A stretch of DNA of 64,000 nucleotides, from NCBI RefSeq assembly GCF_003946085.1, contig NZ_RHOB01000002.1:1-64000 (forward strand). The letters are read 5' to 3'. Positions 6,468 to 46,535 of this stretch are shown here, piece after piece (the stretch's first letter is position 1; every line of letters begins with the position of its first letter). The notes under the pieces are model-generated. The model made no database searches and was not told the origin of the DNA. It saw only the letters and a program-made list of their open reading frames with translations. The stretch is from Levilactobacillus angrenensis (lineage in GTDB: Bacteria > Bacillota > Bacilli > Lactobacillales > Lactobacillaceae). The translations under genes were made by a program, and so were the position numbers.

Positions 6468-6591
6468 ACTACAACGGCAGTTGCGGTCAAATTAATTGTT
6501 GCACAGCTTTTCGATGTTCTTCACCTACCGCCAGCCAATCTGCTGGCGCCGTCGTTCTGTCAGTTTAACACATTGTCACTGCACAAGGACA

Positions 6592-6771
6592 CTGGCGTCT
6601 TTGAGACGCGTTCTTCGGCTCCAAGCGAGGCCGAGACTGTTTCTCAGGCTCGGTCCGCCCCAGCGTTCCACCTCATAGTTGGAACAGTCCTCGCTACGAA
6701 GCCGTAAACGACTGATTTTAACGCGACAAGTCGCGTGGTGACACTCTTTCCAGCCAATTTTCATCTTTAAT
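6592..6771 (+). repeat. Mosaic repeat family I, copy A (left end missing)
   Basis: Contains hairpin 2 (CTTTGAG 6599-6605 with CTCCAAG 6619-6625, one mispair), hairpin 3 (GGCCGAG 6629-6635 with CTCGGTC 6649-6655), a degenerate right terminal repeat and the right flank with GTAAACGACT and TTTTCATCTTT. It fills most of the gap between ptsI and the glycolipid-operon promoter; the rest of 6468-6897 holds a weak hairpin with CCCGGG arms near 6795-6820 that may end ptsI transcripts. Confidence 0.8.
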
Positions 6772-12126: not shown

Positions 12127-12170
12127 CTGCTGGCCGCCTTATCGTTCACTAGAGATGGGGCCAGCTGTGT
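12127..12170 (+). repeat. Solo end of mosaic repeat family I
   Basis: CTGGCCGCCTTATCGTTCAC followed by AGAGATGGGGCCAGCTG resembles the outer edge found next to the terminal repeats of family I (TGGCCGCCTACCGT) and the deleted copy at 30658. Only the edge remains. Confidence 0.45.
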
Positions 12171-12215
12171 CACCGGTATTGGCTGAGATTCCTTCTCAGT
12201 CTACAGTGTGGGCCG

Positions 12216-12352
12216 CCTCAAGGACCTGGTTCGCTTTGTCAGGATTTCAAGCGAAACGGAACCGCTTTTCAGGCTGGCGATGTTCCTCCAGAGTAGGCAG
12301 CATCTCCGGCCGACTCAGGCTCCTGGTTTCACTAACTTTCACGGACATCGGA
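12216..12352 (+). repeat. Repeat family II copy (diverged)
   Basis: Shares with the copies at 19661 and 31139 the series TTTCAAGCGAA, CTTTTCAGGCTGG, GTTCCTCCAGAGTAGGCAG, GACTCAGGCTCC and GGTTTCACTAA. It lies between the clpE terminator and the next gene. Confidence 0.65.
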
Positions 12353-19586: not shown

Positions 19587-19615
19587 CGCTTCTTTATTTA
19601 ACCGAATAACGCTTA

Positions 19616-19658
19616 AAAAGGTTGTGCGCATTCACTTCAGAATGCGGCACAACCTTTT
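19616..19658 (+). terminator. Terminator of nox
   Basis: Long stem AAAAGGTTGTGC-CATTC / GAATG-GCACAACCTTTT 30 bp after the nox stop codon. Confidence 0.88.
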
Positions 19659-19660
19659 AG

Positions 19661-19775
19661 TCTGGGCCAGACTTTCAAGCGAATCGGAAGCCCGTTTCTC
19701 AGGCTGGCGGTGGTCCCCATAGCAGGCAGCAGGTGGAACGCAGGCTCTGATTTAGCCAATTTTAATATCCAGAAT
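19661..19775 (+). repeat. Repeat family II copy
   Basis: Carries TTTCAAGCGAA, GTTTCTCAGGCTGG, GGTCCCCATAGCAGGCAG and CGCAGGCTC, matching the copies at 12216 and 31139 in the same order. It sits in the convergent gap between nox and the WxL protein gene. Confidence 0.7.
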
Positions 19776-24583: not shown

Positions 24584-24601
24584 GATTGGCTAGTACAAAC
24601 C

Positions 24602-24655
24602 AGGCCTCCGCCAGTGGCCCAGACATTCCGCCTACTATGGGGACACTTCCAGCAA
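24602..24655 (-). repeat. Repeat family II fragment
   Basis: In reverse orientation this reads CTGGAAGTGTCCCCATAGTAGGCGGAATGTCTGGGCC in outline, matching the central and right part of the family II copy at 31139. It abuts family I copy E. Confidence 0.6.
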
Positions 24656-24663
24656 CAAGGTTA

Positions 24664-24850
24664 ATACTGGCCGCCTACCGTTACGTGAAACTCTAGGCTG
24701 GAACGCTGAGGAAGGACGGACCGAGCCAAGTTCTCGCCCCTTGCTTTGAGCCGAAGAGCACGTCTCAAAGTCACCAATTTACCAGCAAAACCCACTGGTA
24801 AATTCCCCGGCTGAGCCTAGATTTCACTTCACTCACGGCCACAATACCGC
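24664..24850 (-). repeat. Mosaic repeat family I, copy E (terminal repeats changed together)
   Basis: Terminal repeats GTGAAACTCTAGGCT (24685-24699) and AGCCTAGATTTCAC (24814-24827) pair with each other except for one extra base but differ from the terminal repeats of other copies. Inside are hairpin 3 (reduced to CGAG/CTCG), hairpin 2 (CTTTGAG 24744-24750 / CTCAAAG 24764-24770) and a perfect 10-bp hairpin 1 (AATTTACCAG 24776-24785 / CTGGTAAATT 24795-24804). The remainder of 24851-24975 shows nothing I can name. Confidence 0.8.
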
Positions 24851-30712: not shown

Positions 30713-30765
30713 ACCCATGCTTGCCAAAATTCTCAATCAAGTGCACTATTAACTTAAAACCTTAA

Positions 30766-31065
30766 AGATTGAAAGATAGCTATCAGCTATAAACATGGCC
30801 ACTAGGCGACTGATGGTGTAAGAATTAATCGTTTACAGCATCCCAGCGAGAACTGGCCGCCTACCGTCCGCCAAATCTGGGTTGGAACGCGGTGGGCGGA
30901 CGGGTCGAGCCATAGTACGGTCTCGACGCCTCGCTTTGAGCCGAAGGTCACGTCTCAAAGACGCCAGTTGCCTAAGCGCCATGAACCGCGCCGCTAAGAC
31001 AACTCCCACGGCTGAACCCACATTTGGCGGACTCCCGGCTATTAGAGTGCGTTCTAGTCACAGTT
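30766..31065 (-). repeat. Mosaic repeat family I, copy D (complete core)
   Basis: Terminal repeats GTCCGCCAAATCTGGGTT (30866-30883) and AACCCACATTTGGCGGAC (31015-31032) pair at 17 of 18 positions and span 167 bp. Between them: hairpin 3 (GTCGAG 30904-30909 / CTCGAC 30922-30927), hairpin 2 (CTTTGAG 30934-30940 / CTCAAAG 30954-30960) and hairpin 1 (AGTTGCCTAAGCG / CGCTAAGACAACT, 11 of 13). Conserved flanks extend on both sides (GAAAGATAGCTATCAGC at the left, GGCTATTAGAGTGCG at the right). It lies in a divergent gap. Confidence 0.9.
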
Positions 31066-31138
31066 GATTTAGTTCCAAGTTGTAGCTAAATTGGCAACCA
31101 GTCTTCAACTAACACAATTTTGCCAATAATTACTAACC

Positions 31139-31265
31139 CGCCGGAGGCAGCCAGGGTGGAGCCAGCTGAAAGACCGCTCCTCAGGCTGGAGGCGTTCCCC
31201 ATAGCAGGCGGAATCCCTGGCTGACGCAGGCTCCCGGTTTCACTAATTTCAGTAGACAGAACCCT
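31139..31265 (+). repeat. Repeat family II copy (best preserved)
   Basis: Perfect 9-bp inverted ends CAGCCAGGG (31148-31156) and CCCTGGCTG (31215-31223) enclose GACCGCTCCTCAGGCTGG and GTTCCCCATAGCAGGCGG. Nearly the same sequence occurs in reverse at 35540-35640. Confidence 0.85.
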
Positions 31266-31335
31266 TTCGTTCCAGGAATTACCATGTCAATGCTACTTTC
31301 AATCTTAAAATCTTAAAAAATCGAGGTAACTATCC

Positions 31336-35516: not shown

Positions 35517-35640
35517 TGCTGGCCGCCTACCGTTTGGCAACCAGCCTACGTCAGCCAGGGGTTCCGCCTGCTCTGAGGAACACCTCCAGCCCGAGAAGCG
35601 GTCTTCCAGTTCGCTGGCTCCACCCTGGCTGCCTCCGGCA
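35517..35640 (-). repeat. Repeat family II copy plus family I edge
   Basis: Starts with the family I edge TGGCCGCCTACCGT, then CAGCCAGGG (35552-35560) and CCCTGGCTG (35623-35631) enclose a reverse-orientation family II unit, nearly the same sequence as 31139-31265 after reverse complementing, including GGAGCCAGC and GCCTCCGGC at the outer side. Confidence 0.85.
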
Positions 35641-36103
35641 AAGAGTGACAATCATCAGCAATACTGTGTTAGTCAAAGACTAGTTGCCAAAACAGCCGCT
35701 ACCTGGGGCTAAGTTGCTTGTTACTGGTACGCACTTTTGTAGCCGAGAGTCCGCCAAATATGGGTTCAGCCGCTGAAAAAGAGTGTGGCGACAGGCGGTT
35801 AACTGGCGAGCATTAACGGCGATAGGTGGATAATCCCGATTCTGGATTATTTGCCTATCGGTGTTAAGCGGAACCAGTTGCCTGTTGGTACACGTTTCGG
35901 CTATGAGGCCAGAGACGTGGGCTTTCGGCTCAAAGCGAGGCCGAGACCGTCCCTCAGGCTCGGCCCGGTCCGCCCACCGCGTTCCAACCCATAGTTGGCG
36001 GACGGTAGGCGGCCAGCTCGAACTACGAAGCTGTAAACGACTATTTTTTACGTCACAAGCCGCGTGGTGACAATATGTCTAGCTGTTTTTCATCTTTCAA
36101 CCT
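35641..36103 (+). repeat. Mosaic repeat family I, copy B (with enlarged hairpin 1)
   Basis: Left flank CAGCAATACTG ... TACCTGGGGCTAAG ... GTAGCCGAGA, then terminal repeats GTCCGCCAAATATGGGTT (35749-35766) and AACCCATAGTTGGCGGAC (35986-36003), 17 of 18 paired, 255 bp apart. The extra length is a larger hairpin-1 insert with GATAGG-GGATAATCC / GGATTATTTGCCTATC arms near 35821-35860. Hairpin 3 is GGCCGAG (35939-35945) / CTCGGCC (35959-35965). The right flank runs to TTTTTCATCTTTCAA. The longest copy in the window. Confidence 0.9.
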
Positions 36104-36117
36104 CCAGCCGGTACAGG

Positions 36118-39311: not shown

Positions 39312-39343
39312 AAGAGCTTGGAAATTTTTCCAAGCTCTTTTTT
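39312..39343 (+). terminator. Terminator of the GT2 gene
   Basis: AAGAGCTTGG / CCAAGCTCTT, perfect 10-bp arms with 8-nt loop and six Ts. Confidence 0.93.
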
Positions 39344-39487
39344 CTTGGCGGTGATGACTTCTACTTGTCAAAAGCTAACTAGTAGTCGCCTCCGTTTCTT
39401 TATCTCCGCTATACAATAATCCCCCGAAAGTTGAAAGAGGAATTAATGCCTTGAGGACTGGAACGATCGTGTTCTATCCACTAAAAT

Positions 39488-39860
39488 TAGTGAAGCCAAG
39501 CGCCTGCGTCAGCCAGAGGTTCCGGCGGGTTGTGAAATACCAGCAATACTGCGATAGGAACCAGCCGCTAAATCAGCTGTTACCTGGGGCTAAGCCGATG
39601 ATTACTTGCACACACTCTAGTAGCCGAGAGTTCGCCAAATATGGGTTCAGCCGTGGGAGTTATCTTAGCGGCGGGGTTCATGCCGCTTAGATAACTGGCG
39701 CCTTTGAGACGTGGCCTGCGGCTCAAAGGCGAGGCGTCGAGACCGCCCTTTGGCTCGACCCGTCCGCCCCAGCGCTCCAACCCATATTTGGCGGACGGTA
39801 GGCGGCCAGTTCTCATTAGGATGCTGTAACCGACTAATTTTCGCGTCTAGCCACAGTGGT
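39488..39860 (+). repeat. Mosaic repeat family I, copy C (complete core, with partial family II at left)
   Basis: A truncated family II piece (CTGCGTCAGCCAGAGGTTCC) runs into the family I left flank (CAGCAATACTG, TTACCTGGGGCTAAG, TAGCCGAGA). Terminal repeats GTTCGCCAAATATGGGTT (39630-39647) and AACCCATATTTGGCGGAC (39779-39796) pair at 17 of 18 and span 167 bp, the same as copy D. Inside: hairpin 1 AGTTATCTTAGCGGC (39658-39672) / GCCGCTTAGATAACT (39682-39696), hairpin 2 CTTTGAG (39702-39708) / CTCAAAG (39722-39728), hairpin 3 GTCGAG (39736-39741) / CTCGAC (39754-39759). Convergent gap. Confidence 0.92.
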
Positions 39861-39901: not shown

Positions 39902-39933
39902 AAAAAAGCCTGCATCCCCTAAGGACACAGGCC
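39902..39933 (-). terminator. Terminator of the second gluconate permease gene
   Basis: Minus-strand GGCCTG-GTCC / GGA-CAGGC stem followed by six Ts, 17 bp downstream of the permease stop codon. Confidence 0.85.
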
Positions 39934-42129: not shown

Positions 42130-42202
42130 TGGCCCCACCCGGACTCGAACCGGGATCATTCGCTTAGGAGGCGAGTGCCCTATCCAGTTGTGCTATAGGG
42201 CC
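42130..42202 (-). tRNA. tRNA-Arg (anticodon CCT)
   Basis: A 73-nt cloverleaf on the minus strand: acceptor GGCCCTA / TGGGGCC (one G-T pair), D arm with AACTGGAT, anticodon loop CTCCTAA giving CCT (reads AGG), variable loop, and T arm CCCGG-TTCGAGT-CCGGG with discriminator A. The 3' CCA is not encoded. It stands alone between the universal stress gene and the helicase; the rest of 41920-42129 shows nothing. Confidence 0.95.
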
Positions 42203-46365: not shown

Positions 46366-46475
46366 CATGTTGAAAGATGAAAATTAGCTAGAAACATTGT
46401 CAGAGCGCGACTCATAGCGTAGAAATTAGTCGTTTACGGATTCATAGCGAAAACTGGCACCTACCGTCCGCCAAC
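46366..46475 (-). repeat. Mosaic repeat family I, copy F (flank only)
   Basis: Reverse-orientation right flank: GAAAGATGAAAATTAGCTAG, then ATTAGTCGTTTAC, AAAACTGGC and CCTACCGTCCGCCAAC, where the terminal repeat breaks off. The core hairpins are gone. It lies between the GH25 and rpiR genes. Confidence 0.75.
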
Positions 46476-46535
46476 TAGAATGTCTGTTAGTCAGCGTCTG
46501 CCAACCTTTAGTTGTTTACGTTGGTTGCCGACAAC

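Follow-up and report, generated by a model that had tools for sequence, protein, structure and literature searches.

Group IIC introns are structured RNAs that insert directly behind intrinsic terminators; they are not known to have terminal inverted repeats (TIRs) or target site duplications (TSDs). REPINs, as usually defined, are without TSDs and TIRs.

Bacterial MITEs (Bcr1, NEMIS, RUP, ERIC), in the portions of PMC3733652 and PMC10969869 relied on here, are non-coding and intergenic, have TIRs and short TSDs, give folded transcripts and are presumed to be mobilised in trans; the element reported here is like them in these respects. QMITE2 of Coxiella, as outlined in part of PMC10969869, resembles it in its 7-9-bp direct repeats, TIRs and folded transcript. 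BOX of Streptococcus pneumoniae (cf. PMC10969869), made up of boxA, boxB and boxC modules, is likewise a mosaic, structured, intergenic, high-copy repeat of a Lactobacillales host, and the likeness of the REPINs and RAYT (cf. PMC3116915) is that of an extragenic inverted doublet of a structured unit present in many copies. In the portions of PMC2267715, PMC3733652, PMC10969869 and PMC12306157 relied on here, a lactobacillus is named in PMC2267715 alone, namely L. johnsonii with the repeat family Lac-1.

Results

The window, i.e., the whole stretch of 64,000 nucleotides of Levilactobacillus angrenensis that was analysed, contains several copies of a structured repeat. The first-pass annotation described one of them (copy C, 39630-39796) as 167 bp long, with the ends gttcgccaaatatgggtt / aacccatatttggcggac paired at 17 of 18 positions and three hairpins enclosed. 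This is confirmed, and the same is true of copy D (30866-31032, opposite strand), which has exactly 167 bp in the order of copy C, and of copies B and E, which keep the order at different lengths. The proposed closing stem with a multi-way junction is supported, as is the view of a non-coding, mosaic, MITE-like repeat in many copies. Repeated occurrence of the 167-bp structure is far beyond chance. Copies beyond the window are indeed many: within the genome to which the window belongs (G000; 62 contigs, 2.80 Mb), at least 41 matches were obtained with 40 of the 216 first-look candidates scored, and the true copy number is probably above 41. Covariation is far higher than in shuffled alignments (the figures are given below).

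The absence of a named family also held for Rfam 15: no match overlaps the module in the window (at the gathering score) or in 22 loci (at E <=1), which rules out a known RNA family of that release. The matches that these scans returned are tRNAs, Ref68 and weak ones in the flanks; an intron family is not among them. The sole gathering-level match in the window is a tRNA gene at 42130-42202 (-). The Ref68 / Lacto-3 sRNA (RF02840, 88.9 bits) is found at L018 1907-2038 (-), near a full-length element.

The hairpin cluster noted earlier is real; the 167 bp are not the whole repeat unit. When the 30 copies taken as loci were oriented and aligned (the core is alignable in 29; L008, which contains a duplication, was omitted from the alignment), conservation spanned about 640 bp, and this is the length of the element. 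Its outer ends are CTGAAGGTTGAAAG and CTTTCAACCTTCAG, with 14-bp TIRs. The 18-bp inverted ends, formerly regarded as transposon termini, turned out to be the closing stem of one module inside the element, and the true TIRs and TSDs sit farther out.

In its left part, the element forms a folded module of about 190 nt, which consists of a closing stem and three hairpins. The covariance model R1, built from 35 left-module sequences of the genus (alignment A2), also recognises the right-hand module, in the opposite orientation; thus, the element contains two diverged copies of one module in divergent arrangement. If adjacent non-overlapping R1 matches at most 500 bp apart are taken as pairs, the divergent, direct and convergent ones number 20, 2 and 0 in A3, 16, 9 and 0 in A4, and 13, 0 and 0 in A5 (G000), where A3 and A4 have six loci in common and A4 contains overlapping stretches, so that some pairs are counted twice. 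Of the nine direct pairs in A4, eight come from tandem arrays of the genome G108. We have hardly any doubt that the element carries one conserved module twice, in divergent orientation. The arrays in G108 (L117, L123, L129, L135) are direct, with a spacing of about 360 bp, and are followed by one inverted copy.

Copy C is an element with an internally deleted left module (39422-39860, +; blastn of the 640-bp element matches 39426-39524 and 39521-39841). Its left end is a weak TIR-like match with 5 edits (39422-39442, i.e., L001 1323-1343); at the right end a TIR was not recognised, and the limit is approximate, the similarity to copy B reaching 39860. The right-hand module of copy C (39619-39809, +; R1 68.0 bits, E 9.8e-19) encloses 39630-39796; this is a cross-match, R1 having been built from the other (left) module, and the RNA strand here is presumably +. 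A weak remnant of the left module lies at 39496-39594 (-; R1 13.3 bits, E 0.013). The ORFs over copy C have only 80 and 87 aa.

The element of copy D (30762-31309, -; blastn, TIR pairing) has TIR-like ends on both sides with 3 mismatches each and no clear TSD. Its module (30853-31043, -; R1 47.6 bits), which encloses 30866-31032, is accompanied by an internally deleted divergent partner (31136-31237, +; R1 59.8 bits). The element of copy B (35538-36109, +; blastn, R1, TIR-like match) comprises a left module (35538-35643, -; R1 63.2 bits), a right arm terminating in a TIR-like site with 3 edits (36089-36109), and a right module in which hairpin 1 is swapped for other sequence (35772-35912). This long structured replacement is, by eye, common to the 324-bp element in L200 (1501-1824), as if folds were exchanged as cassettes. 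Copy E is a diverged short form (24597-24842, -; blastn) that R1 matches at only 9.0 bits. The window further contains a single module copy (12132-12326, +; R1 85.5 bits, E 6.6e-24), a partial one in a convergent gene context (19597-19764, +; R1 33.1 bits at 19597-19740, blastn at 19660-19764), and two partial elements found by blastn, a right half (6591-6768, +) and a right arm (46369-46477, -). The modules at 12132-12326 and 19597-19740 and the partner-module remnants at copies C, B and D were not listed earlier.

At E <=0.001, R1 has matches in all but two of the 35 Levilactobacillus genomes (33). Among Lactobacillaceae, the first sample (E <=0.01) yielded 26 positive genomes out of 151, from 9 of 40 genera; a larger one (E <=0.0001), run with stricter filters at the loss of weak matches, yielded 96 out of 397, from 10 of 40 genera. 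Neither this reach nor the divergent pairing was noticed in the first-pass annotation. In the Lactobacillaceae genomes that have the module, the number of recognised copies varies from a few to well over 100, and six genomes of other genera examined in depth have from at least 7 to at least 138 R1 matches each; these counts are minima, as the candidates scored were limited in number for each genome. Three of 198 genomes match in the sample of the order, one of them by a single weak match outside the family, and one of 299 in the sample of the phylum, which is G000 itself. This weak match (L148, G301:C20:42636-42812; 32.9 bits), from a different family of Lactobacillales, may reflect chance or transfer. 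The density can vary along one contig: on G003:C1, only 3 non-overlapping R1 matches lie in 1-200000, far fewer than in 640-880 kb.

With up to 1 mismatch allowed, the TIR is present 101 times in G000 and the reversed control once. In the loci and stretches examined, pairing of ends 180-700 bp apart with at most 3 mismatches per end gave 36 rows, i.e., 35 distinct elements, one copy in L172 having been entered twice. A TSD of 7-9 bp (at most 1 mismatch) is present in 27 of the 36 rows: 16 fit 7 bp, 9 fit 8 bp and 3 fit 9 bp, L151 fitting both 7 and 8; it is absent in the other 9, including copy D of the window. Internally deleted forms of 277-557 bp likewise have TSDs at this stringency. Four of the five small forms with TSDs (277-351 bp; L182, L189, L190, L205) retain a whole or fused module recognised by R1; the fifth, L200 (324 bp), has no R1 match.

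Insertion is polymorphic. The flanks of the copy at C1:78871-79510 can be aligned to G003, G033 and G020, three related species, in which the element between them is missing; this is an empty orthologous site (G003, G002 and G033 are genomes of the window's genus). Contig C56 of G000 aligns collinearly to G003:C1 (about 75-95% identity), and 18 of its 19 element clusters can be mapped: five correspond to element-free G003 intervals of 3, 8, 31, 82 and 82 bp, three to longer intervals where an element was not found, and ten to intervals with some piece of the element, which does not imply the same insertion. Mobility is well supported. With TIRs, TSDs, no coding capacity and insertion polymorphism, which are the marks of a MITE, it is very probable that the element is mobile and of this type. 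A second class of paired copies is without the CTGAAGG TIR (L166:16236-16783, L163:17755-18152, L149, L153); their ends are, in part, CTGGCCGCCTTACCG / CGGTAGGCGGCCAG.

No transposase with these TIRs was found in G000 or in the TIR-bearing loci examined. Two wider TIR spans of G000, chosen by eye from the TIR list (C34:158905-160966 and C61:64627-68545), were considered as an autonomous element and rejected, each being separate small elements. In 27 other loci of the genus, with pairs allowed up to 2.99 kb, only forms of 231-619 bp appeared and no longer TIR-bounded element; TSD-bearing TIR pairs of this size are present in 8 of these 27 loci, which came from the pattern search of the genus. 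Of 65 TIR occurrences in 57 loci, 62 match the MITE, and the remaining three, without similarity to it, look like chance. The transposase partner may be located elsewhere. The exact TIR is present in 14 of 35 genomes of the genus; none of 10 paired-module loci from other genera showed the CTGAAGG TIR, and an automatic search for TIR and TSD at 26 paired loci found one case, in G015, of the same genus.

The inverted doublet, its extragenic position and many copies, and the lack of a blastn match of the left module among 72,556 plasmid and 50,697 phage records would all suit a giant REPIN, i.e., a REP-type doublet moved by RAYT, a Y1 HuH transposase. The latter (PF01797) has no match in G000 and is present in only 6 of 14 genomes tested, and the TSDs and TIRs are clear. 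REPIN/RAYT identity is contradicted by these data, and we consider this origin extremely improbable. An origin from plasmids or phages was likewise rejected, on the blastn result for the left module.

The sampled 455 kb of G000 (C12, C56 and C23:1-100000) contain 53 element clusters, one per 8.6 kb or 4.0% of bases. With ORFs called by a simple length rule, 29 clusters are between tandem genes, 22 between convergent and none between divergent ones (n=51; of the two others, one is within a predicted ORF and one is unclassifiable), whereas all gaps of at least 60 bp in the same 455 kb comprise 146 tandem, 51 convergent and 54 divergent ones. By a similar rule, the module loci elsewhere are distributed as 14 tandem, 12 convergent and 3 divergent in other Levilactobacillus (29 loci) and as 13, 12 and 3 in other genera (28 top-scoring loci). 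Most copies follow the end of a gene. Of 73 gene ends that face an element, 32 have a terminator between them and the element; of 175 control gene ends, 84 have one in the gap, and terminators are no more frequent next to elements than in the control. The intervening terminators at these 32 ends would limit transcription into the element. With the elements removed, 19 of the 73 insertion junctions fall near a terminator end (-12 to +20 bp around it) against 7.0 expected and a maximum of 14 in 500. Copy C itself sits between the terminator-like sites of two convergent genes: one is behind the gene on its left (39312-39339, +), the other behind the gntP-type gene (NCBIfam) on its right (39907-39933, -); the scan gave these 2 sites against a shuffle mean of 1.0.

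The modules could be divergently transcribed ncRNA genes with promoters of their own that act in trans, the MITE being merely their vehicle. The divergent layout is what such genes would show, and modules also occur singly or paired where the CTGAAGG TIR is not seen, in 10 genera. Yet no sigma-70-like site was found around copy C, and the only one around L018 (0.4 in shuffles) is in the right arm rather than in the inter-module spacer; in neither of these two copies does a promoter stand out in the spacer. Moreover, dozens of copies per genome are unusual for a trans-acting RNA gene. We think it quite unlikely that the modules are such genes.

Over the 65 pairs of A2, 93.8% of cells are paired (84.2% in shuffles), 41 pairs are altered on both sides (23.2), in 226 cells (64.8), and the covariation score is 0.320 (0.147); none of 500 shuffles reached any observed value, although these figures overstate independence, as the structure was derived from A2 itself and the sequences are related. 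Sliding A2 by 1-3 columns reduces pairing to 34.5-44.1%. One could object that the covariation arose mostly as a by-product of gene conversion and of the history of subfamilies among many paralogous copies, with a functionless fold: the copies are related, conversion shifts both arms jointly, and the cells count sequences, not events. Against this, there are many pair types across species, the slid controls are far lower, and R1 recognises the fold in other genera, with scores of about 90-150 bits, despite very different sequence, which is independent of how the structure of A2 was derived. We consider such an artefact very unlikely.

Both strands of the module fold stably; RNAalifold gives -149.8 for the R1 strand and -132.0 for the opposite one. 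For 61 pairs defined from the opposite strand, the R1 strand has 70 G-U against 33 A-C cells (columns 22:10, p 0.05), an excess that is borderline. For the union of the pairs of both strands, with enclosed mismatches filled, the cells are 128 against 37 (columns 28:11, p 0.009). The model-fitted alignment A3, which leans to the model, has 133 against 22 (columns 27:4), and a count on 43 sequences and 60 shared pairs has 69 against 35, with any G-U in 29 pairs and any A-C in 21. This points, with moderate force, to the module being an RNA read outward from the centre of the element.

Two module copies at matching sites of G000 and G003, which are two species, selected for a strong R1 match of the same orientation in both genomes, were compared pair by pair. 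In the first, 10 pairs differ: 7 are double changes and 2 one-sided changes that keep pairing, and 1 changes pairing (1.06 double changes are expected at random). In the second, 9 pairs differ: 3, 4 and 2, respectively (0.50 expected). Taken together, 10 of the 19 changed pairs are double-changed with pairing retained. All six one-sided changes that leave the pair intact give G-U on the R1 strand, as is inevitable; they should be set against one A-C change and two further mismatches. Such paired changes may also stem from gene conversion between copies or from independent insertions into one hotspot. The orthologous pairs analysed number two, since a second syntenic block (C1 against G003:1-200000) showed, on comparison by eye, no module copy common to both genomes. 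It seems that resident copies keep their fold after insertion and that selection acts on the RNA made from them.

An explanation at the DNA level has to be weighed here, namely that hairpins or cruciforms formed in single- or double-stranded DNA serve as recognition sites for the transposase or for proteins of the host, the covariation then being the outcome of selection for transposition only. It agrees with the stable folding of both strands, the symmetry of the element, the one fold that is mostly retained in the moved small forms, and a promoter not having been found. It does not agree with G-U exceeding A-C on one strand or with the paired changes in the two orthologous resident copies; TIR-based transposition, moreover, as a rule needs no internal hairpins. 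We judge an action as DNA alone unlikely, and selection on RNA, on balance, rather probable.

Discussion

We believe, with a probability of about two thirds, that the element is a MITE mobilised in trans, often sited behind terminators, with a structured-RNA-like module at its core whose fold works as RNA. Its mobility is well supported; the RNA function of the module is a proposal. A DDE-type transposase, supplied in trans, would cut at the TIRs and insert the element at sites behind terminators, and the module would act as RNA on the outward-reading strand. As the modules point away from each other, read-through transcription entering from either side yields one module in the folding sense, and since there is one correctly oriented fold either way, the orientation of insertion is irrelevant. 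The fold would most likely insulate or stabilise the tails of read-through transcripts, which would render insertions harmless, or useful enough to be retained. This putative role of an insulator or stabiliser is the likeliest single one, and we suggest it tentatively.

It is tempting to go further and propose an undescribed family of RNAs of about 190 nt, present in at least 10 genera, selected as RNA in resident copies, and carried as a divergent pair by a MITE that targets terminators; we see this as a real possibility, somewhat short of an even chance. If it is true, every insertion offers read-through from either side a correctly oriented fold. The element joins transposition at the DNA level to an RNA-like fold that is deeply conserved. 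It makes up about 4% of the sampled sequence of G000, yet it has no match in Rfam 15, and no published description of it was found in the literature searched. The RNA role of high-copy bacterial repeats thereby becomes directly testable in food-associated, easily grown bacteria, and the module is an annotation target for genomes of Lactobacillaceae.

In comparison with the known systems, group IIC introns share structured RNA and insertion behind terminators with the element, which differs from them by its TIRs and TSDs. The unit of the element, about 190 nt, is unlike the short palindrome of REPINs; a TIR and a TSD are present, and a Y1 transposase was not found in G000. Unlike BOX as generally described (cf. 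PMC10969869), it has outer modules that are inverted homologues; a link to Rfam was not found, and in the order sample R1 gave only one weak match outside Lactobacillaceae. QMITE2 has a smaller core of 113-145 bp, and the part of PMC10969869 concerned with it describes no inverted pair of conserved modules. Bacterial MITEs measure 70-300 bp according to the portion of PMC3733652 used, whereas the element measures about 640 bp; unlike the MITEs described there, it has two homologous inverted multi-helix modules, a fold found in 10 genera, and an excess of insertion sites behind terminators.
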